From Pratylenchus scribneri (lineage: Eukaryota; Nematoda; Chromadorea; Rhabditida; Pratylenchidae): a stretch of 64,000 bases of DNA. Below are positions 19,364 through 35,115 of this stretch, piece after piece; the first letter of the stretch is position 1, and every line of letters starts with the position of its first letter. Below the pieces are notes generated by a model. That model was given only the letters and a program-made list of their open reading frames with translations. It did no database searches and was not told where the DNA came from. Where the stretch lies: assembly GCA_030063045.1 (NCBI GenBank), contig JAQSEB010000131.1, positions 744,001 through 808,000 of the forward strand, given 5' to 3'. The translations under genes were made by a program, and so were the position numbers.

Positions 19364-22300
19364 ATGAGTGAAAATGTTCAAATGACAAGCAAGGAAATGG
19401 GAGAATTATTTTTGAATTTTGAGGTGAATTAAAAATTTGGAATGTTTATAAAAAAATTGAATAATAATATTTTTAGGAAATGAAGAACAACAAATTGGAT
19501 GCAGCGAATTGTGGTTCGAAATTGTTAATTTTCGAGGAAGGACTCGTTGCAGTCTATAAGGCTGGAGAAAATTTCGGTAAAAATTGAACAGCAAAAATTA
19601 AAATACAAATCTTTTTTTTAAAATTATTTTTAGGAAATAATCGTGTTCGAGCTGTTTCGGCAATTCCAGCATTCAATTCGGGAGACCTCACCCAACCAAA
19701 GATTGCCATTTATTATGAAGTGCAAATGACCAGAATTTTGTAAGTAATTTGATTTTAATTTTTATATATATATAATCCGTTTTGACTTTTTCACATTTCA
19801 AAATTCAGCGGCTTTTCTAGGGATTTTTAGGTTTTGGGACTTGCACATTCTAGGGGCAACTTTTCATCGCGCATCTGAGAAAAATACGCGTTTTTTGATA
19901 TGGGTTTGGGTTTGGGCCGAAACCGGTTTAAAAACCGGTTTGTCCTGGTAAAACTTTTTTTAAAAGGCCTAAATCAAAAATCGGCTCGGTGAAGGCACCT
20001 CCCCAGAGTGTGGGCTTTATTTTGATATATGGGTCGGGGGGTCTACCATGGCCAGGGGAGGCTGGAAAAATGGCAACGTGTGGCCAAGTCGGGTGCGCGA
20101 GTCAGAAATTTCCTTATAACTTTTTTGAGAGTTCAGATAAAGCTGCGCGGTAAAAAGCAAAGTTGTAGATCTCGACGAGACGGATCGAATGGTATATTGC
20201 CTGGAGCGTTAGCTTAAACCGGTTTTGAGATATAAGCTTAAACCGGTTTAAAAATTCCGATTGTATAATTAAAACTTCTTTCTTTTTGGATTTTTCTATA
20301 CTAATGTATCATAAATATTGAAGAGAATGGAAAGGCGGTTAAAATAAGTACGCGAGTTCCTATTTAATGTGGGTTTCGAGATATATACTTAAACCGGTTT
20401 CAAAATTAAAAATATTTAATATTTTTGGGATAATATGTCATTTAAAAATAAAATATAAGCTAGCAGAGAAAAAAGTAAAGCAAAATTAATGGCCATCAAT
20501 TAATGCAATTTTCAAGTTTTGCCATCGCAATCAATTCTGCTTTTAATTTAGAAAATGGTCGATATTTTAGATAAATTAATTTGAAATTTAAGGTCGAAAT
20601 GGATTATTTTTGATTGATCAATTAATGGAGGAAATTAATGGGAAATGTGAGGAACAAAAGGCCGGCGACCGATGCCATCCTTTTGAATCGAATATGGATT
20701 TTGAGGTTAAATTAAATAAATTTAAATATTTAATTTAATGTTTTCAAGGTTCGTTTTATGGCCGATTTGGACATTGTTGGTTGCGGTTGGATTGAATGCC
20801 CAGCAAATAAATATGAATATATTCACCCGAATAAGAAATTGAGCACATGCCAAATTGAGGTAATTGGTTTGGTTGGATTAGGATTAATTTAAATTTACTT
20901 TTAGTTATCCATAAATGCTGCCGATTTATTGGTGCATGATTCGAGTTTGCCCGAATGGTCCGTGGTTCCTCCACTTCGAACATTGAGTTTTGACATTGAA
21001 TGTATGGGTCAATTAGGTTTGTTTTATTTTCATTTATTTATTAATAATTAAAAATATGTAGGAACATTCCCGGATGCCAGCCGTGACCCAGTCATCCAAA
21101 TTGCCAATATGGTCAAATTTGAGGGCCAAACGGAACCATTCGTCCGATATTGTTTCACCCTGGAAACGTGTGAACCAATCGTCGGTACGGACATCATTGA
21201 ATGTGCCATGAGCAGGAATTACTCAAAATGGGCGATTTTATACGACAAATTGATTCGGACATCCTCACTGGATATAATATTCAAAATTTCGATTTGCCTT
21301 ATATCATGGATCGGGCGAAACAATTAAAGGTTTTAAATATTTGAAATGCGAAAAGATTATTAACAGTTCAATGGTTTGTCTTCTTAAGGTTTAACCAATT
21401 TTAATTTTGAATTAATTTTGATTTTGAACCAAAAACCTTAAAATGGTTTAAATGGTTTAATACCAAAACGCAAAATCATATGATGGTTTAAGCGGTTTAA
21501 TACTAAAGATGGTTTAAATGGTTTAATACCAAAAACCATCAGATGGTTTAAACGGTTTAATTATATTCTTAATTTTGACCAAACTATGCACTAAACTGCG
21601 CATCTTGATCTTACGAGATCTATCAATTGGGGGCTATATAAACCTTTGAACCGTTAAAACTTTTGTCAATTTTCAATTTTTCACCAAATTAAATACCCAT
21701 AATTAAGATTGAGAACCGTGTCTGCTATTTGAGTAGAATAAAGGGAAATGTTTGTAAGCAAAGGGATGCCAGCCTACAATACAAGCAAATGGGCAACCGG
21801 ATCAACAAAGTTTGCTCAATGGATGGCCCCTTACTATGGAACATGGCGACGGCGGAGTGCGGTGATCACTGGGCGACGACGGCAAGGAAGAAAAGGTTTC
21901 CCTAACTCTTTGATATTTGAATAATATTAAATTTAAAAAAAAGTTTAATTTAGTAATTTATAAATTTGAAACAATAATTTAACCGGTTTAAACACAAATC
22001 TTTCCGGAATGAAACACAATTTAACCGGAACAAAACACAAATCTTTCCGGAATTAAACACAAATCGAACCGAAATGAAAATCAATTATTTCCGCCAACTA
22101 TTAATTTATTACAATTTTAGTTTTTGAGTGATCGATCCGAGGAATGCAGCAAGAATATCCGATCAGGCAGCGCCGCAATGTTCACACAATTTCTGGAGCA
22201 GAATGGATTGCTGCACATTTGATTGCAGAGTGGAGCTGGGCGGACGTAAAATATAATTTTTAAGACATTTTCGGATTTTCCAAAATTAAGTTTTTCTGAT

Positions 22301-25300
22301 TTTTACAAATATGAAAATAAAAAATATATTTTCTATTGAGAAAAATATTGCATTTTTCGGATTATTATATTTTTGGATTTATTTTTCACAAAAAGTTGAG
22401 TGCAAAAAATTTGAATATATAATATATGGCACTCAATATTTTCACATTTTTCTATGTTTGCTCATATCAGACCGGTGCGCTTGCGCCCGTGGTCTATAAT
22501 GCTCGGTGCGCTTGCGCCCGTGAGCTTTTGTGTCGGTGCGCTTGCGCCCGTGACACTGACCGGTGCGCTTGCGCCCGTGGTCAATAATGCTCGGTGCGCT
22601 TGCGCCCGTGAGCTTTTGTGTCGGTGCGCTTGCGCCCGTGACACAGACCGGTGCGCTTGCGCCCGTGGTCAATGCTCGGTGCGCTTGCGCCCGTGAGCTT
22701 TTTTGTCAATGCGCTTGCGCTCGTGACATAAGCCGGTGCACTTTGCGGTGCCCATGGACAAGCTCACCACCAATGACCCTTGAGCAAGGTACGCCTATAA
22801 CTTGGGGCGGGTCTGCCAAAGGTAGGTTGAGGCGGATGACCGCCGATCACGCCATAACACGCGGCAGGCGCAAACCGAGTGGGTGGATAGGCTATTGGTG
22901 GTGGGTTAAGGGAAATAGACCCGAAATTGCAGCGGACGAGGAGATGAAAACCGACGACTCCGTGGGTCTATTTTTCTTAGCAAGGCAGCAATTGGGATCC
23001 TGGAACCCATGTGTCATCCCCACGAGTTAAAAGGTGCAATTCCTTTTAGCGCAAATGGCTATAAACGGGATTCAATTGCTGTCTTAGGTGATTTAAAAAA
23101 ATCACCGACAATATGAGTGCGTTTTCAAATGAAAGTGATGTCAGCTCTCTTGGAAGCTACCTCAGGTTTAAGGCATGCCTTGAGAGTGGGCGCGTATCCA
23201 TCATTTGGAAATGCTTCGTATTGTTTAATCTTCTCAAGTCGCGATTGAGGGATTATTAATTTATAAATTTATGGTTCAATACCAATATATCAATGAAATT
23301 TGGCTTTATGCCGAATTCTATATAATTTTTACCAATATCAATGAAATTTGGCTTTATGCCGAATTCTATATAATTTTTACCAATATCAATGAAATTTGGC
23401 TTTATGCCGAATTCTATAATGGTTTTTTATACCAATCTATCAATGAAATTTGGCTTTGCCGAATTCTATAATGGTTTTTTATACCAATCTATCAATGAAA
23501 TTTGGCTTTTTGCCGAATTCTATAATGGTTTTTTATACCAATCTATCAATGAAATTTGGCTTTTTGCCGAATTCTATAATGGTTTTTTATACCAATCTAT
23601 CAATGAAATTTGGCTTTTTGCCGAATTCTATAATGGTTTTTTATACCAATCTATCAATGAAATTTGGCTTTTTGCCGAATTCTATAATGGTTTTATACCA
23701 ACTGTTATGGCTTTATGCTAAACATTTAATGGTTTTATACCAACTGTTATGGCTTTATGCTATACATTTAATGGTTTTATACCAACTGTTATGGCTTTAT
23801 GCTTTACATTTATGGCTTTATGCTACACATTTAATGGTTTCATACCAACATTTATGGCTTTATGCTATACATTTATGGTTTTAACACCTAACATTTATGG
23901 TTTCATACCAACATTTATGGCTTTATGCTACACATTTAATGGTTTTATACAAACATTTATGGCTTTATGCTACACATTTAATGGTTTCATACCAACATTT
24001 ATGGCTTTATGCTATACATTTAATGGTTTTATACCAATATTTATGGTTTTATGCTATACATTTATGGTTTTAACACCAAACATTTATGGTTTTATACCAA
24101 TATTTATGGTTTATGCTATATCACTTTCGCCTGAAAGGGATTGTTTGTGAGAGTGAACTGAGCAGGCATAACCAGTTGATGCATTGTTCTTCATTTCACA
24201 ATTTTCAATATTGAATAAATATTTGAATTTTATTGTGTACTTATTGGTTATAATGCCTTTTCTTATTGTTGTTCACATATTTTTCATAAACTTAATCCTT
24301 TTTTTCAGATGCCTTCTACAATTCGAAATCAGAAGAAGCGCAAACAAAATGAACGTGAGCGACGACAAGTGGGCTCCTCGTCTGCTTCAGTCAGCTCAAC
24401 ACCAAACCGTCCTCTTCAGGACGAAAGTGATCGCTTGATTGCGCCGAACCAAAGTCCATCTATTGATCTTGAATCATTAGCAATTCATACGCCAAGACCG
24501 CGTATTCTTAGTGCCATCTCTGATGATGCACCACCAAAAAAACGAGGACGACCTAAAAATACAAATAGTGGTCAATTTGGTACAAATAAGGCGCAATCGT
24601 CTAATACTGAAAGGCTTTCAACGCCTTCAAGCGATTCAGAAAATCAAAGTCGCACGGGAACCCCTATTCCAAATAGTCCTCTTCAGGATAAGGCGGAAGA
24701 AAGGGCAACCGCAAAAACATTGCCTTGGAATTTGTGTAAAAAGGGGCGACCGCATTATGCCATTAGTCCCGAAAAGGCAAGCACTTCACAAATTATTTGT
24801 GAAACACCAATTAAAGAGAATTCATTCTCTCCACTTCCATCGATCACATTTGGAAGTGAGAAAAATTCGCGCGATACGTCGCCGATAAGTATTGCTTCTT
24901 CTCAAAGAAGCCGTGGACGACCTAAACAGTTGAGAGGTCGACCCAAAAATGTCACACATGTTGACACACCAATGAAGCCAAGTTCAAGTTCATTGGTTTC
25001 GAAAAAGGTACCTACGGGTCCTCAAATTCAGCAGCAGGCAATTCCTTATGTTTGGAGAATGCCTATTCGATTCGCTACTGAGCGAAATCCGAACGCCATA
25101 ATTTGGCGACGTGCTGATTTGTCTCTTTACGAGCAAGATAGTACAACCGTTAATGGTGTACTTCAACCACCCCAAGGCCGTCGTTATATTGAAACACTCT
25201 GGAATGATCCAGGCCAATGGCTGAATGATTCGTTCATTTATGCATATTTATGTTATTTGGCCAAACTCTCGCCTAAACGAGTAGTTGTAGTGGATCCGCT

Positions 25301-28300
25301 CTATTCAGATCCAAATAATTTCGATCGTACAAGAGATCATATGCAAGCACTTACCGTCCTCACCTCATGTTTCAATTATGATCCAAATGTCCAAACAGAT
25401 ATCGTCCTCATGCCTTTATTTTTCCCAGGCCATTGGACATTGATCATTTACGATCGAAAGAGTGGTACACATTTTTTTGACTCATTGGGTCAAAATCCGG
25501 GATTTAATTCCCGTTTGGATCCTACTTATCCGAATTTCAACGCACAAAGAATTCCACATATTCAGCAATGCATTGCTGAGATAATTCCTGGCTACGAGCC
25601 AGAAGAAGTCTATATTAACGTTATTGATCCAAACACATACACACAACAACATGATGGGATCAATTGTGGATTCTTTGTATGTCTATATGCTGAACATTAT
25701 TTGAATTATGGCACATAAAGAAAATCGATGAATGATTTGTTTGCAAGGTTCGCCTGGATGGTCCGAGTTGGGTGGGAATTGACAATGTTTGATGTTTTTG
25801 CGGCTTTTCCAATTTGCCACAAAATTGATGATGTTGATGTTTCCAAATTCAGTTTTTTCGCCTTCGGCTACTTATTTGACTTTGGCAGATGGATGAGTTG
25901 AAAATTCACAATTTAATTTTCACACTTCTTTATTTATTCATTTGTTTGGTTTTTTGTTTTGTTTGACAAGAATGAAAAAATCATCATCATAGGGATAGGA
26001 AAGAGGATGAAAGAGGCGGATATTTGCTGATAACAATCTTGTGAGAAAAAGCATAAAGAATCAATTGATTGGAAGAAAATGGCAAAAAATGAAATGAAAA
26101 ATTTAATTAGAAAATTAACATATTTTCTTCATTTTAAATTTTTGGGCTTTATTCTTCATTTTCTCCTTTTTTATTTCTCTCAATCAGCATTTCGCTCAAT
26201 TCACCATCCTCGATCATTTCCATTTTTGGCACTGCGCAATCCTTGACCAATCGCACTTTTTGCCATTCCGCAACACTCCCCCTTGAAAAAGTTTTGATGT
26301 TTTCTTCCCTAATCTTTCTTTTCTTCATCAACCTATTATTCCATTGATACATATTCAAAATACATAATCCTATAATTAATGCAGTTTTCATAATCTCACA
26401 AATTTCAGTGTCAGTTAAATTATTCATAATTGATGTATTCCTATTTTTTATTTTCGGATTAGGTTTTGTATGAACAATTCCAGCTTCCAAATTGGCATTA
26501 ATATTCCCTAATTCAAATTCGAATTTTTCTTTCTTTTCATCGATTCCTAATTCTCCGTTTTCAACAATGTTTTTTCCTAAATTTTCCAAATTTTTCTTAT
26601 CCAGTGCCAAATGGCTTTTTTGGCTAATTGATACTCGCCTAATAATTAATTCTTTTTTCACATTACCCACATGATTGAGATTTTTAACTCTTGGCCGTGA
26701 TCTGAATTCCCTACTTAATTTGTTTACATTTTCAAATTTTTTACGTTTCCTAAACTCATTGTGAATTTGCCTAAATTTATTATTTTGGTTTTCCCTATTT
26801 GGTCCAAATTCATGTTTATTCTTGTCAATAAATTGACAATTGTAATAGCGAATAGGCGGCCGATAGTTTGCTTTGTTGCAAGCAAATTTTTGTGGATAAT
26901 TATTATTATTTTGCCTACGCTGCTTATCATAATTTTGTGTTTTTGGTTGGTTAATTTCTATTTTATAATTATTTTTCCCTGATTGTTTTCCTTGCTTTTG
27001 TCTTCCTTTATATGAATGAGTATTTGACATATTTTCTGAAATCATTTTTGTTTCTTTTTGACCTTTATTCGTTTGCTCAAAACCAATATTGTTTTTTAAA
27101 ACAGCTTTATCTTTTGAATTTCCTCCAAGTGGAAATCCACAAATTCGAAACCTATTTTCGATTTTCTTAATAGCGCCTTCTGATAGTATTTTATTCCCTA
27201 AATTAGATATTTCTTCTGCTGGTTCTGGTTCTGGACTAAATTTGACGTGTTGAAACTGTTGATTTTCCTTTTGTACTACCTTATCATTTTTCTTCATGGT
27301 ATTCCCTAAATCCAATAATTGAAAGTTTCCTTGCTCACTCAGAATTAAATCATCGCGTGAATTTTCAATCGCGAAATCTTCATCAAAACCTAAATAATAG
27401 TTACATATTTTCATTCCCGAATCTAGGTTAAAAAGGCACGATTCTAACAAATTCAAATTTTCATTTATTTCAGCATTATTTATATCTCCCAAAGCATCAA
27501 GCACAATCTCGAATTTAAGGATCCTTTCTTCGTAATTTTCAACCAAACTATCCATTTTGAATAAGTCAGGAGACGCCTTCGAATGTCCTTCTATTTTATG
27601 CGAAATTTTGACTGGATTTTCCTCTAGCATTGCTAAGATATTCTGATCAAAAGTAATGGATTCCTTTAATTCGTCTTTTATATTTTTTAGTAATTCTACA
27701 AATTCAATTTCATTCTTCTCCTTTTGACAATTTTCAATTTCTTTTTCAAAAATTTCCCTATTTTCTTCATTTTCATTCTCAAATTCTGATAAATATTCAA
27801 CAGATCCAAAATCATTTTCTCTTTCGATAGAATTTGCCCAAAATGTAATCCTCATATTCCTAGTCATATCCGCGGTATCTGAATAAGATGATCCAATATC
27901 AATGTTTAATCTATCCGCTAAATATAATAGCAACAATTTCCACCTATTTTGTGCTAATTTTGCCATTTGTACCTTCTCTCCCAGATTAAATTCTCTAAAA
28001 AATGTCCTGAAACTATTTTCTATTTGTACTTTATATGCTGCAGTCAAAGTTGGGAAAAATTCATGTGCTTTTCCTATTTCTTTAGCAATTTTTCCTAACA
28101 AACTATCAAATTCCTCAAATTTATTTTTAACCCTATAATATAATCGCTTAAGCGAATTCGTTGTCGCCCTATCTCCTAACATTTCTGGCACATTTTCCTC
28201 TATAATCAATTCCAACAGTTTCCAATATTTCCTAATTTCACATTCATAACTTGATTTTGGTCTGGGGAGTGGAGGTGGGTCATTATCCTCCATTTACCTA

Positions 28301-31300
28301 CTTCTTTATTTTCAATTATTTTACCAAAATTTACCTATTTTCAAATTATTCAACTTCCCACTTTTTTAAATTCAAACCTTCCAGGTTGCAAGGGTCGCCA
28401 CTTAAAGAAATTCAATGAATGTTTCTGTGTGCAAGGTTCTCCTGGATGGTCCGAGTTGGGTGGGAATTGACAATGTTTGTTGTTTTTGCGGCTTTTCCAA
28501 TTTGCCACAAAATTGATGATGTTGATGTTTCCAAATTCAGTTTTTTCGCCTTCGGCTACTTATTTGACTTTGGCAGATGGATGAGTTGAAAATTCACAAT
28601 TTAATTTTCACACTTCTTTATTTATTCATTTGTTTGGTTTTTTGTTTGATTTGATAAGAATGAAAAAATCATCATCATAGGGATAGGAAAGAGGATGAAA
28701 GAGGCGGATATTTGCTGATAACAATCTTGTGAGAAAAAGCATAAAGAATCAATTGATTGGAAGAAAATGACAAAAAATGAAATGAAAAATTTAATTAGAA
28801 AATTAACATATTTTCTTCATTTTAAATTTTTGGGCTTTATTCTTCATTTTCTCCTTTTTTATTTCTCTCAATCAGCATTTCGCTCAATTCAACATCCTCG
28901 ATCATTTCCATTTTTGGCACTGCGCAATCCTTGACCAATCGCACTTTTTGCCATTCCGCAACAGCACATTTCTGAACAGAAATTTAAATATTAACGATGA
29001 ACGCCATCGAATTTTATGGCATATAAATGAGCTCTATGGCCGGGATGATGTTCCATACTATTATCCATACAATGTCCAACCAACCGGACCAGTTCGCACT
29101 CTTACATTTGAACAAGAGTTGGAAAAGGCCGTTGAAATTGTGCCAGAAGTCAATAATATTCCAGAGCCAATGGAAATCGAAAACAATGAAATCCGGGTTG
29201 AAGATCCCGATGCAACTGCCAACTTACGTAAGTCGGCAAGAATTCATCAGAAGCAAGTAAAAAAGGCTGATGAAGCAAAAAAACAGGCTGATGCAGAATC
29301 GAAAAAAGCTGTGCCTTATACAAAGAAAGGTTGTAAAAAGCACGCTGGCATCGGCTGTTTTTCCTGGAAATCAGGCCATTATCCTGAATATTATAATTCA
29401 GGAATTCCCGGAGATAGAATTTGCGAACATTGCGCAAACAAACTCTATAAAAACCAAACATATTGTTGGTCGTGCACTGATGGGCGGGTTGAATTGCCAT
29501 CTTTCAAAGAATATCCCGACCCATATGACAAGTTGGTTATGGGCACACATCCAGACTCAAAGTCTTTCATCGGCCATCAAGCGAAATTCAATAGCCTTTT
29601 CGCTTTTGCCTCACTTTCAGCAGGTGGTGCTGAAGCGCCTGAGGGTGGTCCAATGCCAGTTCTTTTGAACGGCGAATTCCAACGAAAGATTGGTAGCCTC
29701 TATGCAGGCAATGATCAAATACCATCTTTTGATCAACTTTATATTTTGGATTCTCAAACGGCTAATGATTGTCGAAGGAATAATGAAATCCTTGAGAAGA
29801 TGCCAAAAAAATGTCCCAAGTTATTCGAGACACTTGATCAGTTGATCAGAGAGCACCATCCAATGGCGCATATTTTACAAAATGCCCATGAATTCTATCA
29901 GGAAATGGAGCAAAATAATCCTGACGAATTAAAGAATTTTAATATTATTTTGGTTAATACCAGAGATGCACCAGCAAACGTGCAAGACCCGCGTCTTCAT
30001 CCGAGGCAAATTAATTTGCCAACTCGAGATGAATCAACTGTTTTTGCCATTTGGTCATCTTCAGATAATGATCCAATCCCAATAAATGGTATTTGGATTA
30101 CAAAGAAGGGAGGGCTCACTGAACTGTGGCCTAATCATCCCATGACGGATTCCCTTCTTTACCCACTTCTGTTCATTAGTGGAGATTTGGGTTATCGCAA
30201 AGATATTCCATACAAAAAACCAGCCGCAAAGAAAAGGAAAATTCAATTGAAGAAAATAGCATCAGAAGATGATGATGCTGAGTCTGATATTTCTATGTCT
30301 GATGATAAAAGCGAAACATCATCTATCTCAGAAAGCGATACTGATTCAATTGACCTTTATGGTGACGAAGGATCGAAACGTAAATTCCTCTCTATGAGAG
30401 CATTTATACGTTATATACTTGGAATCCGAAGTCCAATAAATGATAAATATCATCATATTTGGAGTGCAGGTGGCGGACTTAGCCAAAGATTCCTGCTTGA
30501 TTATGCCGCAAGAATTGACGATCAAGTTTTCCAATTCTTACGCACTCCAGAAATGGATCTTCGAAAAGAATTGCCAAAGGAAATGTTGGAATTCTTGGCC
30601 AGGCAAGCCGGCCTAGCATCATCTGATGCATTAGGTAAAGTTGTTCTTTTCCGTTCTTACATGCCAGGTTTCAGACCATATTTCAAAGAGAAATACACCG
30701 ATGGTTGCACAATTATCAACCAAATTCGGAAACCGGGCCGAGCAATGTTCTTGCTCACATTCACTTCGAATCCGCGGTGGATTGAAATTAAACCGCAAAT
30801 GTATAAAAATGGTCAGGCCTTGATTGATCGACCAGATGTTCTTGTAAATCTCTATATTGATAAAACACAAGATATCTATCGTAAAATAAATGAGAGCAAC
30901 GCCTTTGGAAAACAACTCGGCTATGTTGAAAGCATGGAATTCCAAAAAAGAGGCGGTCCTCATTTTCATCGCATTATTGTTACTCAAATTGAAGCGATTC
31001 CGGCAATCATTGACGATTATATTTGGGCTTTTATTCCAAAATTGCCACATCCTGATGATAAATCAGATCAGGCCAACTTCCTCAGAAGAGTGCGTGAATT
31101 GGTAATCCAATATCAATTACACGATTGCCGAGATGACTTTTGTGGACCAATTAAAAATGGAAAATGCACTAAAGGATTTCCACATGATTTTAGCAAAGAG
31201 ACTTTCCTTTTTGAGGATCGTCCAGCTAAACATAAACGTCCAGCCCCGGAAGATGGCGGCGAGATTGTAATGGTTCAAAAGGGGGGTGTGAAACAAATTT

Positions 31301-34300
31301 ATGACAATCGTCATGTCGTCCCCTATTCGCCATTCATTCTTTCAAATTATGAGACGCATCATAATTTGGCCTATTGCTACGGCGAAAGCACGAACATGGC
31401 TTATTTGACCAAATATCCATTGAAAAGTGCAGATCAAAGCTGCGTCAAGCTTGAAAATGGTGAGGTGAACATTGATGAACCAGCCAGATTTGCGCGAATG
31501 TACTATCGCTCACCATGCGAAGCATTCTGCCGCATTATTTCTGCGCCATATGTCCGCATGTCACATGTGGTTATTCGTCTCACCATTCATCTGCCAGATA
31601 ATCAGCCAATCTATTTCAAAGGCAGAGAAACAGAAGAGGCACTTGAACGTGTCGAAGCTGGCGAATTGCCAAAGACAATGCTCACAGAATATTGGGCACA
31701 ATGGGCATCGGGAGAATCCGTCCAACGAATTGATGGCAGTTGGACTTGGGCCGATGATCCTGAGATCAAAAACATGCGATATGATTAAATGCCCGAAAAA
31801 TATTCATATGATAAAAACTCAAAAGTTTGGAAAAAGCGCATTGTCGCTAAAAAGGCTAACAAAAACAAGAAGCCTATTATTGGTCGAATTTATCGGCCTC
31901 AGCCTAAAAATCAAGAGCTCTTTGCTCTTTATGTGCTCATGCGTCATTTTCCTGGCGATCCAGATGCCTTGAAAGACGTGGATGGCTACATGTGTGAGTC
32001 GTTTGTTGAAGCAGCACGTCTACACGGTCTCCTTATGGATGATACCGTTTGGGAACGAACTCTTAATGAAGCATCCCAACAAGGCGTAATTGGAGCACAA
32101 TTTCGCGATCTATTCGTCCAAATTTTGGTATTTGGTAATCCAAGCAATGCTTTGGCGCTTTGGGAGAAATTCATTGAATTCATGTTCAGTCATGCGCGAA
32201 TTCTTGGCGTGCCTAAAAATCACCCAGAACGATTACGCCGAATCGATCATGCTTTAGCCGTGATTGAAGCGCAATTGGCAGACTACGGTCTGACCATGGA
32301 GAATTTCCAACTCCCATTGCCAAATGTGTCATTCACAAGAGATGTAGATAAAGCTATCAACCGATATTTCTTCGGTTCTGATCTATTTGACGACGAAGAT
32401 GACGTCGGTCAAAATAAGCCGCAAAGTTCATTCAAATTGAATGCGGATCAAGAAGAAGCTTTTAAACAAGTTCAAAAAGCGATTAAGGCCTCACCATTCG
32501 ATGATAAGATTCCACGAACATACTTCGTATATGGTGACGGTGGCACAGGAAAAACAGTCCTGTTCAATCATTTCGTTAGTAAATTTCGTGAAATGAAAAA
32601 GAAAGTAATCGCTTGCGCCTATACAGGCTGCGCTGCCACTCTTCTCTTCGGAGGAACTACAGTTCATTCTGTGTTCAGATTTTCACTCGATATTGAAGAG
32701 GACTATACGCCATCAATATCAGTCCAAAGCTTTCATGGTCAACGAATTCGAGTGGCAGATATGATCCTCATAGATGAGGTTTCAATGCTTCCAAAACACA
32801 TGTTTGAAGCAATTGATCGTGTCTGCAAGCAATTAGCAATAAAGCAATTGAAGCATTTACCATTTGGTGGGAAGGTTGTAGTCATTTCTGGCGATTTTAA
32901 ACAAAATTTGCCAGTTGTCCCACATTCCATAATGGAGGCGCAAGTTTCAGCTTGCATTCAATATTCCACGTTATGGCCATTATTCCGGAAAAATCTGCTT
33001 CGCCTGACCATAAATATGCGTCAAGGTCCGGGTGAGCGCGAATTCACAAGAAAGCTCAATCAATTTGGTTCTGACCCTAATGCGGAGCTTGTGGAAATTC
33101 CTAAAGAAAATGTGGCTTATACATCAGATCAGCTGTTAAATTTTGTCTCTGACAATGGACAGGCATTACATAATCCACAACAGCTCTTAAAGAGATTGAT
33201 GTTGGCGCCACATAATGTCACTGTTGATGGCATTAATAGCCGAATTCTTGGAATGCTAAAGACCACGGAAAAGATTTATCTTTCAACAGATGAATCATTA
33301 ATCGAACGACCATTCGATATTAATGCAGCCGATGACGAGGAAGAAGCATTGAATAAATTTAATCCTTCCGGCTTGCCATTGCATGAATTGAAACTCAAAG
33401 AAGGAGCAATTATAGTCCTCTTGAAAAATCTTGCTGTTGCTCGAGGACTTGTCAATGGCACACGAATGGTCATTAAGAGCTTGCATGATAATATCATCAT
33501 GGCAGAGGTGATTACCGGTACCAATGCAGGCACCGGAAAGCAAGTTTGTCTTAATAGATGTTGGTGCGATTATGAAGAAAATGGTCGCATAGATGGAATT
33601 AAATTCCGTCGTTTCCAATTCCCAGTGCATCTTGCATTCGCAATGACCATTATGAAAGAACAAGGCCAATCGGTCAATCAAATGGGTCTTGATTTGTCCC
33701 AAGATGTCTTTGCACACGGGAATTTGTACAGTGCTATGTCTCGAGTAACAAGAGAGACAGGTTATCGCATTTATGCACCAAATGCTCCAACTAACCCCAA
33801 AACGGGAAGTATTTATGTAAAAAATATCGTTGCTGAAGGATTGGATTTCTTGAATGAATAGCTGCAATCCTCGCAGTTGAAATCCACAGCAGAACAAATG
33901 CAGTCAAAAAAAAGTTTGATAATACCCTGTCCCGGTTGGATTGGCCACCCATTCCTATGCAAGGATGGTTTACATTACCGGACCATGGTTGAATGGGCTG
34001 AGCCGTTGGGTCGGTCAATTTAACCGTTGACTGCATTCGAAAGAATAAAATAGGATGGGGACAGGTCGGTGAAGGCGAGGTCGATGGTTGGATGTGGGTT
34101 TAGAAAAAGACCCAGAGGATTGTCCACCAGTCCGCCTTGCGATGCATTGGATTTGATTGCCATTGCATCAAACGAAATTATAATGTGATTCCACCGGCCT
34201 GTTGGCGTACAAGGTTTCCACACCTCGCAGGCCTCCTCGCGGCCGTACGCCGGTAACTCTTCGCCTAAAAACAGTGGCTGTTGTGAGCCAGGTTGAAGAG

Positions 34301-35115
34301 GCTAACCCCAAATGAACACAACACTTTTGGGGAGCGAAAGTGGTAAATAAACAAGGCGAGCAAAGCGAGTTTTACTATATAATAAAAATGGGCGAGCGGA
34401 GCGAGCCTTGCGGAAAAGGTTTAAGGGATGAGAAAAGCAGGCCAAAAAATGGGAATTAGATTAAAACTACAAATATTTTAACGTGAAATATCAAAATTTT
34501 TTCCGAATTCTACAAATCAACTAGGGGTCCTTAAAGCGCCCCGCGCTTTCAAAAATAATTTATTACATTTCGCCCAGTCTAACCGCTAAAGCAGTCCCGA
34601 AGGGACTGGTTTTTGAAAATAATAAATTTTGTCTTTCTCTTTATCGACCAATAATTCATAGATTATTTCAGGTTTGGTGGCACTACCATTGGATTTTGTC
34701 CCAAAGATTTTCCAATGGAATCAAATTCGCTAAAAATTGTTCTTGGAAAGCCAAAAACTGATACCATTGGACTTGGGGACAAAAACGAATTGTACATTGA
34801 TGGATCCCCTACTTGTTTTGACGAAATAGGATACGGATTCCACGAAGATGACATTATTGGGCTCGGAATAGTCCATCGCCCAAATGGCAAAATGGAATGC
34901 TTTGCCACTTGGGATGGCATATTGATGGGTAAAATAAATTTAAATTAATGAAATAAATAAATAATATAAATTCAGGGAAGGCCGAAGTACCAGCAAAGAT
35001 TGCCAATCTCCAATTATTCCCAGTCGTCGATTTGTGGGATGAAAGGGATTCAATTCGCGCCAATTTTGGGAAGGAAAAATGGAAATTCAAAAATTTCCAA
35101 AGCGTTCTTCAATAG
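19364..35115 (+). CDS. SPRY/B30.2-domain protein, split by a 14.9-kb intron
   Basis: Five exons: 19364-19423, 19477-19576, 19634-19739, 34671-34928 and 34976-35115. The first three encode [20 protein letters not shown] through [14 protein letters not shown], the front half of a SPRY domain (IYYEV is the usual YFEV strand). The donor GTAAGT at 19740 joins the acceptor TTTCAG at 34670 in phase to give RIL followed by [16 protein letters not shown], the next SPRY strand. The last exons ([39 protein letters not shown]) finish a RanBPM-like SPRY fold, stop TAG 35113-35115. The product is about 220 residues and almost entirely the SPRY domain, a protein-protein interaction module. There is no signal peptide, so it does not look like a secreted SPRYSEC effector. 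The alternative, two unrelated fragments, is unlikely because phase, splice signals and domain order all agree. Confidence 0.82.
20593..22220 (+). pseudogene. POLD1: Broken fragment of DNA polymerase delta catalytic subunit (exonuclease part)
   Basis: Exon-like blocks 20593-20705, 20749-20859, 20905-21007, 21062-21329 and probably 22121-22219. The translation matches POLD1 before and within the 3'-5' exonuclease: [17 protein letters not shown], then Exo [11 protein letters not shown], then [13 protein letters not shown], then Exo [18 protein letters not shown]. Splice signals are kept, so it is a genomic copy and not a retrocopy. A one-base deletion near 21207 breaks the frame between IIECA and the following [10 protein letters not shown] segment. 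The block at 22121 ([16 protein letters not shown]) resembles the FLGR...CSNIRDS segment that follows Exo II, then decays and stops. Nothing of the polymerase palm or fingers follows, nor of the N-terminus before. It is a dead fragment within the SPRY intron, possibly carried in by the Helitron. Confidence 0.82.
21342..22080. repeat. GGTTTAA-rich degenerate repeat block inside the POLD1 fragment
   Basis: Many copies of GGTTTAAA and GGTTTAATACCAAAA in direct and inverted order, followed by AACCGGAACAAAACACAAATCTTTCCGG repeats near 21975-22070 (shown here as linked motifs). It separates two POLD1-like blocks and appears to have inserted into, or expanded within, the former intron. Confidence 0.5.
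22470..22755 (+). repeat. Higher-order array of nine hairpin repeats with three alternating outer stems
   Basis: The core GGTGCGCTTGCGCCCGTG starts at 22474, 22505, 22535, 22562, 22593, 22623, 22650 and 22678, with a changed ninth copy near 22708 and a degenerate tenth near 22734. Each core folds on GCGC-TT-GCGC. The bases flanking each core are complementary and come in three types that rotate: GACC/GGTC, GCTC/GAGC, TGTC/GACA. The three-unit block repeats with a period of exactly 88 bases (22474, 22562, 22650). In some copies pairing extends by a base with matched change on both sides (AGACC/GGTCT in the first, TGACC/GGTCA in the fourth). The array is GC-rich in AT-rich surroundings. Confidence 0.85.
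22756..23260. other. GC-richer non-coding segment with a cluster of perfect stems
   Basis: There is no convincing ORF. Stems visible by eye: AAATAGACCC (22913-22922) with GGGTCTATTT (22964-22973); CAGCAATTG (22986-22994) with CAATTGCTG (23073-23081), enclosing TAAAAGG (23028-23034) with CCTTTTA (23042-23048); and GGTGATTT (23087-23094) with AAATCACC (23099-23106). Base composition resembles the Helitron coding and 3' regions more than the host, so this is the best candidate for the Helitron's 5' non-coding end. Confidence 0.55.
23275..24130 (+). repeat. Compound satellite with 48-, 54- and 42-bp units
   Basis: Three blocks grade into each other. About three 48-bp units start TATCAATGAAATTTGGCTTT and contain ATGCCGAATTCTATATAATT (23283-23400). 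About six 54-bp units share that start but have GCCGAATTCTATAATGGTTT (23400-23690). About ten degenerate units of about 42 bp are built on ATGGCTTTATGCTATACATT and AATGGTTTTATACCAACATT (23700-24120). All periods are multiples of three, so several frames stay open, yet the predicted peptides are simple repeats without family match. I read it as a tandem repeat inside the Helitron rather than a gene. Confidence 0.85.
24309..25718 (+). CDS. AT-hook and Ulp1-like cysteine protease, N-terminal part of the Helitron polyprotein
   Basis: 469 codons. The first 235 residues are basic and Ser/Pro-rich with AT-hook cores: RGRPK at 79-83, KKGRP at 144-148, then a double RGRPK at 202-206 and 209-213. The second half is a C48 (Ulp1/SENP) fold: QWLND at 303-307, catalytic His in GHWTLIIYD (H375), Asp in FFDSLG (D391), oxyanion Gln near 446-447 and catalytic Cys in GINCGFFVC (C453). 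The triad is complete. The stop TAA (25716-25718) is the first three bases of an inserted LTR; before that insertion the frame ran on into the Rep ORF. The start is the first ATG after a TTTTTTTCAG that could be a splice or trans-splice acceptor. AT-hooks suggest binding to AT-rich DNA; the protease may process the polyprotein or deconjugate SUMO-like proteins (inference). Confidence 0.88.
   Translation: MPSTIRNQKKRKQNERERRQVGSSSASVSSTPNRPLQDESDRLIAPNQSPSIDLESLAIHTPRPRILSAISDDAPPKKRGRPKNTNSGQFGTNKAQSSNTERLSTPSSDSENQSRTGTPIPNSPLQDKAEERATAKTLPWNLCKKGRPHYAISPEKASTSQIICETPIKENSFSPLPSITFGSEKNSRDTSPISIASSQRSRGRPKQLRGRPKNVTHVDTPMKPSSSSLVSKKVPTGPQIQQQAIPYVWRMPIRFATERNPNAIIWRRADLSLYEQDSTTVNGVLQPPQGRRYIETLWNDPGQWLNDSFIYAYLCYLAKLSPKRVVVVDPLYSDPNNFDRTRDHMQALTVLTSCFNYDPNVQTDIVLMPLFFPGHWTLIIYDRKSGTHFFDSLGQNPGFNSRLDPTYPNFNAQRIPHIQQCIAEIIPGYEPEEVYINVIDPNTYTQQHDGINCGFFVCLYAEHYLNYGT
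25716..26275 (-). repeat. Downstream (3') LTR of the gag-only element
   Basis: Matches 28403-28963 almost base for base. It also encodes the last roughly 42 codons of the gag ORF (26149-26275), an unusual overlap of coding sequence with the LTR. Confidence 0.88.
26149..28293 (-). CDS. Gag-like protein of the LTR element (714 aa)
   Basis: The only long ORF of the element; start ATG 28291-28293 is the first after the upstream LTR. It is very rich in Glu, Lys and Asn. The N-terminus has a proline stretch (DPPPLPRPK) followed by predicted helices ([27 protein letters not shown]), which is capsid-like. The middle is acidic. A basic, Gln/Asn-rich part (roughly residues 415-560; for example [13 protein letters not shown] and [15 protein letters not shown]) could bind RNA, but I see no CCHC knuckle, aspartic-protease DTG/DSG, or YxDD polymerase motif. 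The C-terminus is encoded inside the LTR. I do not recognise a named family; gag is inferred from position and overall make-up. Confidence 0.65.
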   Translation of the reverse strand: MEDNDPPPLPRPKSSYECEIRKYWKLLELIIEENVPEMLGDRATTNSLKRLYYRVKNKFEEFDSLLGKIAKEIGKAHEFFPTLTAAYKVQIENSFRTFFREFNLGEKVQMAKLAQNRWKLLLLYLADRLNIDIGSSYSDTADMTRNMRITFWANSIERENDFGSVEYLSEFENENEENREIFEKEIENCQKEKNEIEFVELLKNIKDELKESITFDQNILAMLEENPVKISHKIEGHSKASPDLFKMDSLVENYEERILKFEIVLDALGDINNAEINENLNLLESCLFNLDSGMKICNYYLGFDEDFAIENSRDDLILSEQGNFQLLDLGNTMKKNDKVVQKENQQFQHVKFSPEPEPAEEISNLGNKILSEGAIKKIENRFRICGFPLGGNSKDKAVLKNNIGFEQTNKGQKETKMISENMSNTHSYKGRQKQGKQSGKNNYKIEINQPKTQNYDKQRRQNNNNYPQKFACNKANYRPPIRYYNCQFIDKNKHEFGPNRENQNNKFRQIHNEFRKRKKFENVNKLSREFRSRPRVKNLNHVGNVKKELIIRRVSISQKSHLALDKKNLENLGKNIVENGELGIDEKKEKFEFELGNINANLEAGIVHTKPNPKIKNRNTSIMNNLTDTEICEIMKTALIIGLCILNMYQWNNRLMKKRKIREENIKTFSRGSVAEWQKVRLVKDCAVPKMEMIEDGELSEMLIERNKKGENEE
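26276..26290 (-). promoter_or_regulatory. Polypurine tract of the LTR element
   Basis: On the minus strand CAAGGGGGAG is followed at once by the LTR start TGTTGCGG. Position and composition match a plus-strand primer for reverse transcription. Confidence 0.7.
28385..28402 (-). promoter_or_regulatory. Primer-binding-like site of the LTR element
   Basis: On the minus strand the sequence right after the LTR end TTTCTTTA is AGTGGCGACCCTTGCAACC. TGGCGACC at this position is a common LTR-element primer-binding start (complement of a tRNA 3' end). Which tRNA is not determined. Confidence 0.6.
28403..28963 (-). repeat. Upstream (5') LTR of the gag-only element
   Basis: The mate of 25716-26275. Its right edge (minus-strand start TGTTGCGG) abuts the second copy of GCACA. 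Sixteen of its bases on the plus strand supply the apparent ATG and first codons of the downstream Rep ORF. Confidence 0.88.
28948..31788 (+). CDS. Helitron Rep part (HUH endonuclease with two tyrosines)
   Basis: 946 codons as an ORF, but the first five codons and part of the sixth (28948-28963) come from the inserted LTR; true Helitron sequence begins at 28964. A Cys/His-rich segment lies near residues 127-175 ([24 protein letters not shown]), possibly a zinc finger. An acidic linker follows (about 435-475). Then comes the Helitron-like N-terminal domain ([15 protein letters not shown]), the HUH motif in [13 protein letters not shown] (H672, H674) and the catalytic pair Y819 and Y823 in AYLTKYPLK, spaced as in active Helitron Reps. 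[16 protein letters not shown] and [17 protein letters not shown] close the Rep part. The frame ends at TAA 31786-31788 and resumes at the very next codon with the helicase. No key catalytic residue is lost. Confidence 0.9.
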   Translation: MPFRNSTFLNRNLNINDERHRILWHINELYGRDDVPYYYPYNVQPTGPVRTLTFEQELEKAVEIVPEVNNIPEPMEIENNEIRVEDPDATANLRKSARIHQKQVKKADEAKKQADAESKKAVPYTKKGCKKHAGIGCFSWKSGHYPEYYNSGIPGDRICEHCANKLYKNQTYCWSCTDGRVELPSFKEYPDPYDKLVMGTHPDSKSFIGHQAKFNSLFAFASLSAGGAEAPEGGPMPVLLNGEFQRKIGSLYAGNDQIPSFDQLYILDSQTANDCRRNNEILEKMPKKCPKLFETLDQLIREHHPMAHILQNAHEFYQEMEQNNPDELKNFNIILVNTRDAPANVQDPRLHPRQINLPTRDESTVFAIWSSSDNDPIPINGIWITKKGGLTELWPNHPMTDSLLYPLLFISGDLGYRKDIPYKKPAAKKRKIQLKKIASEDDDAESDISMSDDKSETSSISESDTDSIDLYGDEGSKRKFLSMRAFIRYILGIRSPINDKYHHIWSAGGGLSQRFLLDYAARIDDQVFQFLRTPEMDLRKELPKEMLEFLARQAGLASSDALGKVVLFRSYMPGFRPYFKEKYTDGCTIINQIRKPGRAMFLLTFTSNPRWIEIKPQMYKNGQALIDRPDVLVNLYIDKTQDIYRKINESNAFGKQLGYVESMEFQKRGGPHFHRIIVTQIEAIPAIIDDYIWAFIPKLPHPDDKSDQANFLRRVRELVIQYQLHDCRDDFCGPIKNGKCTKGFPHDFSKETFLFEDRPAKHKRPAPEDGGEIVMVQKGGVKQIYDNRHVVPYSPFILSNYETHHNLAYCYGESTNMAYLTKYPLKSADQSCVKLENGEVNIDEPARFARMYYRSPCEAFCRIISAPYVRMSHVVIRLTIHLPDNQPIYFKGRETEEALERVEAGELPKTMLTEYWAQWASGESVQRIDGSWTWADDPEIKNMRYD
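31789..33861 (+). CDS. Helitron PIF1-like helicase part
   Basis: 690 codons in the same frame as Rep, directly after one stop codon. [17 protein letters not shown] is the linker that normally joins Rep to helicase in Helitron proteins, so this is not an independent gene. SF1B motifs: Walker A GDGGTGKT (about residues 248-255), motif Ia ACAYTGCAA, Walker [10 protein letters not shown], motif [20 protein letters not shown], and the C-terminal motifs [14 protein letters not shown] and LYSAMSRVT. The stop is TAG after GLDFLNE. It unwinds DNA during rolling-circle transposition. Start as an independent ATG is possible but probably fortuitous. Confidence 0.9.
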   Translation: MPEKYSYDKNSKVWKKRIVAKKANKNKKPIIGRIYRPQPKNQELFALYVLMRHFPGDPDALKDVDGYMCESFVEAARLHGLLMDDTVWERTLNEASQQGVIGAQFRDLFVQILVFGNPSNALALWEKFIEFMFSHARILGVPKNHPERLRRIDHALAVIEAQLADYGLTMENFQLPLPNVSFTRDVDKAINRYFFGSDLFDDEDDVGQNKPQSSFKLNADQEEAFKQVQKAIKASPFDDKIPRTYFVYGDGGTGKTVLFNHFVSKFREMKKKVIACAYTGCAATLLFGGTTVHSVFRFSLDIEEDYTPSISVQSFHGQRIRVADMILIDEVSMLPKHMFEAIDRVCKQLAIKQLKHLPFGGKVVVISGDFKQNLPVVPHSIMEAQVSACIQYSTLWPLFRKNLLRLTINMRQGPGEREFTRKLNQFGSDPNAELVEIPKENVAYTSDQLLNFVSDNGQALHNPQQLLKRLMLAPHNVTVDGINSRILGMLKTTEKIYLSTDESLIERPFDINAADDEEEALNKFNPSGLPLHELKLKEGAIIVLLKNLAVARGLVNGTRMVIKSLHDNIIMAEVITGTNAGTGKQVCLNRCWCDYEENGRIDGIKFRRFQFPVHLAFAMTIMKEQGQSVNQMGLDLSQDVFAHGNLYSAMSRVTRETGYRIYAPNAPTNPKTGSIYVKNIVAEGLDFLNE
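34533..34549 (+). terminator. Subterminal hairpin 1 of the Helitron
   Basis: AAAGCGC, loop CCC, GCGCTTT: a perfect 7-bp stem. Hairpins close to the 3' end act as transposition terminators in Helitrons (family knowledge); assignment here is by position. Confidence 0.55.
34592..34608 (+). terminator. Subterminal hairpin 2 of the Helitron, followed by a T-run
   Basis: CAGTCCC, loop GAA, GGGACTG: a perfect 7-bp stem followed by GTTTTTG. It is the last GC-rich structure before host sequence and the best candidate for the 3' terminus. Confidence 0.55.

Follow-up and report, generated by a model that had tools for sequence, protein, structure and literature searches.

Can a Helitron carry a Ulp1-type protease in the same protein as its Rep nuclease and helicase, and what might such an enzyme do for the element? 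The question is raised by a stretch of 64,000 nucleotides from the nematode Pratylenchus scribneri (GenBank assembly GCA_030063045.1, contig JAQSEB010000131.1, positions 744,001 to 808,000 of the forward strand; hereafter the window), in which a large Helitron-type element is present as a damaged copy. All coordinates are those of the window, on its plus strand unless stated otherwise. A first-pass annotation of the sequence had proposed that a protease frame, now split by a long terminal repeat (LTR) element, once ran on into Rep.

Protease, Rep and helicase in one frame

The window copy retains three plus-strand open reading frames (ORFs). The protease frame (24219-25718) matches Pfam PF02902 at 34.5 bits, the cut-off being 20.7; the Rep frame (28807-31788) matches Helitron_like_N (PF14214); and the helicase frame (31789-33861) matches PIF1 (PF05970) and PIF1 2B (PF21530). 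The latter two ORFs lie in the same frame, separated at the Rep/helicase border by a single in-frame stop codon (31786-31788) through which the intact copies read. The protease and Rep frames are parted by the LTR element, a minus-strand insertion of 3,248 bp (25716-28963) flanked by GCACA target duplications at 25711-25715 and 28964-28968.

The P. scribneri genome (227 Mb in 276 contigs) has at least 64 Helitron_like_N places, and 13 of them lie in a stop-to-stop frame of 2,083-2,153 codons. All 13 long frames contain both the protease and Rep and align over their full length at 88% identity or more. Pfam searches on three of them (L014, L017 and L019) found C48 (28.4-30.1 bits), Helitron_like_N and PIF1 in each, with PF14214, PF05970 and PF21530 in one frame. 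A fourteenth copy, L011 (1,862 codons), likewise joins the protease to Rep. For comparison, we used 18 copies of the window's family, including all 13 full-frame ones, and two of a second family (L026 and L027). In 17 of the 18 sister copies the insertion site is empty: GCACA stands there once and the frame continues through it. The region is missing from the eighteenth, L024. BLAST alignments between the window and the sister copies break at both borders of the insert.

Since intact copies carry the frame uninterrupted, the protease-Rep-helicase fusion is established without reconstruction. The earlier argument, that removing the insert and one GCACA leaves an open frame, is thereby confirmed on real sequences, as is the claim that Rep and helicase share a frame, no stop lying between them in intact copies; the predicted single product of roughly 2,100 residues agrees with the lengths of the 13 frames. 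The first-pass annotation had also named the outcomes that would speak against it, a protease frame ending before Rep or belonging to a separate host gene. Instead, in intact relatives, both in this genome and in Heterodera, one open frame joins the protease to Rep and helicase. Four open-frame copies (L015-L018) are more than 99.7% alike, which suggests recent movement.

The two LTRs of the insert (25716-26275 and 28403-28963), about 560 bp each, are 97.9% alike, which marks the insertion as fairly young. Its minus-strand ORF at 26149-28293 (714 codons) gave no Pfam match at an expectation value (E) of 0.001, and the ORF list holds no further frame of 90 codons or more within the insert, which is probably a non-autonomous LTR element. 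The insertion point lies downstream of the catalytic cysteine and upstream of the last helix of the protease. This helix, residues 236-249 of the model predicted for the L020 protease, thus falls past the insertion, and the window's protease domain is interrupted, not complete as had been described.

Layout, ends and class of the element

Aligned to L017 and L018, the whole element spans 19760-34609, considerably more than the 24309-33861 first assigned to it; the 5' limit is approximate, the copy having diverged there, and similarity to the sister copies ends at about 34609-34611. In L017 and L018 the element measures about 13.15 kb, of which some 6.1 kb precede the frame and consist partly of tandem repeats. 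In the window, the tandem arrays of this 5' non-coding part occupy 22470-24114, with a gap at about 22730-23287 and spacings of 21/42, 48-54 and 85-88 bp; L020 aligns across them.

Within the coding part, the motif RGRPK, which we take to be AT-hook-like, can be read three times (24543-24557, 24912-24926 and 24933-24947). The repeated AT-hooks of the first-pass annotation therefore stand as motifs and not as a recognised domain, no Pfam AT-hook model having matched the full frames of L014, L017 and L019 at E up to 1. Downstream of the protease follow a basic RKSAR motif in the linker between protease and zinc motif (29227-29241), which recurs in relatives, a Cys/His cluster (29332-29475), the Helitron_like_N/HUH Rep domain (30451-30975) ending in GPHFHRI (30955-30975), and the two-tyrosine motif YLTKY (31402-31416). 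The HUH nuclease with two tyrosines had thus been read correctly, and all four residues of HFH and YxxxY are invariant in 14 of 14 copies. The PIF1 helicase occupies 31789-33858, with its Walker A motif GDGGTGKT at 32533-32556. With an HUH motif, two putative catalytic tyrosines and a PIF1-type superfamily 1 helicase fused to Rep, the element can be assigned to the Helitrons by its sequence.

At the 3' end the copies have a 7-bp hairpin in common, CAGTCCC-GAA-GGGACTG, which closes 1 nt short of the terminus (in the window, hairpin and final G at 34592-34609). TT follows this end in 7 of 7 junctions read, and the terminal CTGG, which fits CTRR, is present in six of the seven, L017 having one G fewer. 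The 5' end starts TTATATAC in L017 and L018, the two copies read. A possible 5-bp hairpin near it, GAAAG-ATG-CTTTC, was read by eye in both and could be chance, and a comparison of the end regions for an asymmetric terminal inverted repeat returned only A/T-rich exact words. Canonical ends, as given in passages of PMC4067079 and PMC5148889, comprise 5'-TC and 3'-CTRR, a hairpin 10-12 nt inside and an A/T target. We therefore rejected a canonical Helitron (Helitron1), given the start TTATATAC in place of TC, the hairpin 1 nt from the end and the TT that follows. The ends resemble those of Helitron2 and Helentrons. No endonuclease family, and so no apurinic/apyrimidinic (AP) endonuclease of the kind that is the Helentron hallmark, was found at E up to 1 in L014, L017 or L019.

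As a separate observation, the 5' end of L018 directly adjoins sequence that matches, over the roughly 60 bases read, the 3' end of the element. Two Helitrons thus appear to be arranged tail to head there. Tandem arrangements of such a kind are reported in passages of PMC5148889.

The protease, its relatives and its history

The main part of the C48/Ulp1-type domain lies at 25215-25715 (PF02902; SENP2 match at E 4e-6), with active-site codons for His (25431-25433), Asp (25479-25481), Gln (25647-25649) and Cys (25665-25667). Its end lies beyond the insertion at 28969-29031 (FLNRNLNINDERHRILWH), where the L020 model places the last helix at about 28990-29031; in that model the helix begins 24 residues after the catalytic cysteine. 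Alignment of four loci from this genome with 10 of 24 protease-bearing proteins shows that the catalytic His-Asp-Gln-Cys set is invariant, and the protease is presumed to be catalytically active.

A SENP-like fold is predicted for the protease. By both predicted fold and sequence, SENP1/2 and Ulp1 rank first among the matches listed, above Den1 and OtDUB, and proteases of viral CE-clan members show the same fold at lower Z (9.8-10.9). Neither VTD structures nor adenain are among the 50 entries listed in the fold comparison, which by itself excludes neither, and no OTU match was found by Pfam at E up to 1 in L014, L017 and L019. This ranking bears on the idea that the enzyme works as a deubiquitinase or deneddylase and thereby stabilises the transposase, its substrate being something other than SUMO. 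Such a role would parallel that of the VTD domains of Helitrons, which, as proposed in passages of PMC9741609, might prevent degradation of proteins needed for transposition; with the SUMO proteases placed ahead of Den1 and OtDUB, we regard it as rather unlikely, while the strongest of the alternatives.

Relatives of the protease are found in other species, again with Rep. A search with the protease part alone returned seven Heterodera schachtii and H. trifolii proteins, at 41-43% identity over 99% of the query, all of which also carry Helitron_like_N and have GRP-type AT-hook motifs ahead of the protease. The Rep part retrieved 96 proteins. A profile built from the P. scribneri and Heterodera proteases scored above 20 bits in 24 of 101 proteins, Meloidogyne included; seven of the 24 are seeds of the profile. 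Protein P0029 of the firefly Photinus pyralis scored 81 bits, P0030 42 bits, and the second family of P. scribneri 29 (L026) and 24 bits (L027). A search of the protein collection with the L026 protease (residues 150-430) gave no match among 574 candidates. Some relatives already bear automatic database labels of the type 'Ubiquitin-like protease family profile domain-containing protein'; the domain can thus be seen in those entries, with no description of it found.

In a tree of Rep (84 rows, quick method, midpoint root; P0081-P0101, rows with an aligned Rep span under 430 positions and all but nine P. scribneri loci left out), all 26 protease-bearing rows fall in one group of 32, with 100 in the Shimodaira-Hasegawa approximate likelihood ratio test (SH-aLRT). 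The remaining six rows of this group comprise four short gene models plus two rows that lack the protease. This one tree supports confinement of the protease to a single Helitron branch, for which one early acquisition would be the simplest account, and horizontal transfer between nematodes and beetle is possible. Among the other proteins, a DCGVF stretch in P0035 (Leptopilina) was dropped, its profile match (E 0.11) being hardly better than that of the negative control P0033 (E 0.19). P0078, a Helitron Rep-helicase (RepHel) protein, carries an N-terminal USP-type ubiquitin hydrolase (residues 48-349; PF00443, 3.5e-20), which adds another family of ubiquitin proteases fused to RepHel.

To gauge constraint on the domain, ratios of non-synonymous to synonymous substitution (dN/dS) were computed for 10 of the 14 full frames (45 pairs), with L015-L017, near-identical to L018, and L011 omitted. 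They are 0.45 for the AT-hook part, 0.29 for the protease, 0.12 for the linker, 0.11 for Rep and 0.12 for the helicase. Bootstrapping over codons gives 0.22-0.38 for the protease, an interval that is only a guide as the pairs share history. The protease is thus under purifying selection, clearly below 1 and weaker than that on Rep. Mean dS among these own-genome copies is 0.11 in the helicase and 0.30-0.35 in protease and Rep; the window copy is closest to L020 in its left part and to L014 in its right part. The copies look mosaic, as from recombination or conversion.

A protease that had merely been picked up as a host gene fragment, with no function for the element, would fit the frequent capture of gene fragments by Helitrons (passages of PMC6431247). 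Against it stand a whole domain in frame, the invariant catalytic residues, the purifying selection and a single group spanning nematodes and firefly. The genome's own C48 genes tell the same way. They occupy at least 136 places (150 of 208 candidates scored). Against the profile of the Helitron protease, eight sampled from these reach no more than 8-21 bits, where the firefly protein reaches 81 and the full Helitron copies 404-441. The eight included neither a close relative nor a close host donor; we accordingly judged a recent host-gene capture unlikely, and a functionless passenger we consider very improbable. Many of the C48 places are single frames of about 220-300 codons clustered on contigs C164, C239, C125, C98, C151, C262 and C247, and would represent an expanded stand-alone C48 family, remotely like the Helitron protease in the eight sampled.

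Self-processing, in which the protease would cut the product of some 2,100 residues into parts, much as adenain, pox I7L and other C48-like enzymes of viruses act on polyproteins, had been raised by the first-pass annotation. Ulp1-type enzymes cleave after diglycine. In 21 of 37 rows a GG occurs among the 60 residues that precede the protease, and some of these lie in an AT-hook motif (KGGRPKK); a single long product is encoded, and the viral CE-clan enzymes share the fold, albeit at the lower Z given above. Cleavage of Rep, helicase and endonuclease by OTU has been suggested for Helentrons (passages of PMC4067079). For the linker between protease and zinc motif, we took 43 protease-bearing rows, of which 40 have the zinc motif by pattern, 17 of these being copies from one genome. 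Neither GG nor an adenain-type site occurs in 39 of the 40 linkers, the exception, P0003, having a GG in a divergent stretch; moreover, 13 of the 37 rows have no GG at all before the protease, and P0016 and P0023, possibly without protease, keep RepHel. A cut between protease and Rep is therefore unsupported, the nearby GG on the N-terminal side being what stands of the idea. Some members may have their N-terminal portion removed, or the enzyme may cut with a different specificity. Processing as the role of the enzyme seems to us improbable.

A possible role in SUMO removal and its known counterparts

The reading to which we lean, with slightly more confidence than doubt, is that the protease is a tethered remover of SUMO, or of another ubiquitin-like tag, that shields the transposase or the element's chromatin from SUMO-dependent control by the host. 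Action on SUMO is plausible, and we infer SUMO as the substrate, tethering to DNA by the AT-hooks and a benefit to transposition. The Rep tyrosines would nick and join DNA and the helicase unwind it, in rolling-circle transposition as in Helitrons generally; through its AT-hook-like motifs the product would stay attached to AT-rich DNA; and the fused protease would act locally, stripping SUMO-like tags from the element's machinery or from nearby host proteins. One target could be SUMO-dependent silencing factors at the element; SUMO helps to silence transposons in flies and supports heterochromatin in organisms from yeast to mammals (passages of PMC9406493). The other could be the transposase itself, including its covalent intermediate with DNA.

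SUMO-directed crosslink repair would attack such a covalent Rep-DNA intermediate. A narrower proposal is that the protease, sitting in one polypeptide with the tyrosines that bond covalently to DNA, would clear SUMO off the trapped intermediate and thereby conceal it from SUMO-directed repair of DNA-protein crosslinks throughout the whole old branch, nematodes and beetle alike; this we think unlikely. If true, it would explain why Helitrons have repeatedly recruited proteases of ubiquitin and ubiquitin-like tags (OTU, VTD, USP, Ulp1) and kept them with Rep.

Several observations weigh against a tethered SUMO remover. The C48 relatives include proteases of Nedd8 and ubiquitin, so the fold leaves the substrate unsettled. 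The protease evolves faster than Rep (0.29 vs 0.11), and the position directly after the active-site His holds Trp in 8 of 14 aligned rows, with Phe in five and Tyr in one; in the firefly P0029, the Trp of WLND is absent and the Pfam C48 score lies just below the cut-off. The L026 protease scores 17.4 with Pfam C48, under the cut-off of 20.7, and its structure model failed, at a predicted local distance difference test (pLDDT) score of 36.6. Among seven profile-positive relatives, Pfam C48 is above the cut-off in P0027, below it in P0001, P0017 and P0029, and unlisted in P0008, P0013 and P0030.

The distribution of the domain adds further such points. The profile detects no protease in the 52 Rep-tree rows outside the group, 31 of which have fewer than 450 residues before Rep, so that only 21 could show it. 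In two Meloidogyne models of the group, P0016 and P0023, the AT-hook-like motifs, the Cys/His cluster and RepHel are retained, but the profile detects no protease, nor does profile comparison in P0016, the one so compared; the protease may be dispensable in this sublineage, unless the gene models are mis-spliced. Outside the group, residues 257-375 of P0080 align His, Asp, Gln and Cys to the profile (E 2.5e-5, probability 75%). This protein, which has no Pfam C48 match and begins MGRPKK, possibly reflects a second recruitment of a related domain.

The data presented here extend the short list of Helitron-borne tag removers by a domain of SUMO-protease type, and indicate an early acquisition in one Helitron branch, then kept under selection. 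They also make testable whether a rolling-circle transposase needs SUMO or ubiquitin marks undone on itself or on its target chromatin, for which the open frames of L015-L018 offer natural material.

In the passages of PMC9741609 and PMC4067079, the accessory proteases of Helitrons and Helentrons are OTU or VTD, not Ulp1, and we found no Ulp1-bearing Helitron described in the literature searched, as far as its passages go; Repbase and most subscription journals lie outside it. The earlier remark that Ulp1 is unusual here and OTU usual fits these sources; Ulp1 domains are placed by other passages in Ginger1, Mutator-like elements (MULEs) and Crypton.

As their passages describe them, Helentrons and Helitrons with VTD or OTU (PMC9741609; PMC4067079) likewise combine a Rep-helicase transposon with an accessory cysteine protease for ubiquitin or ubiquitin-like tags, whereas the present element has C48/Ulp1 in that role and no C-terminal AP endonuclease. 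Helitron2-type elements of Fusarium and Chlamydomonas (passages of PMC5148889 and PMC4067079) share the non-canonical ends, the T next to the ends and a RepHel without endonuclease, and those of Fusarium also a hairpin with a GAA loop; the N-terminal AT-hook/C48 module and the length of about 13 kb (L017/L018) set the element described here apart. A C48/Ulp1 domain also belongs to the protein sets of Ginger1 (PMC2836005), MULE/Kaonashi (PMC13317346) and Crypton (PMC3212892), which, in the passages concerned, use DDE transposases or tyrosine recombinases, in contrast to the HUH Rep-helicase here. With the SUMO proteases SENP1, SENP2 and Ulp1, finally, the protease has in common a predicted fold and the His-Asp-Gln-Cys set, at about 20% identity, and differs from them in being fused to a transposase.

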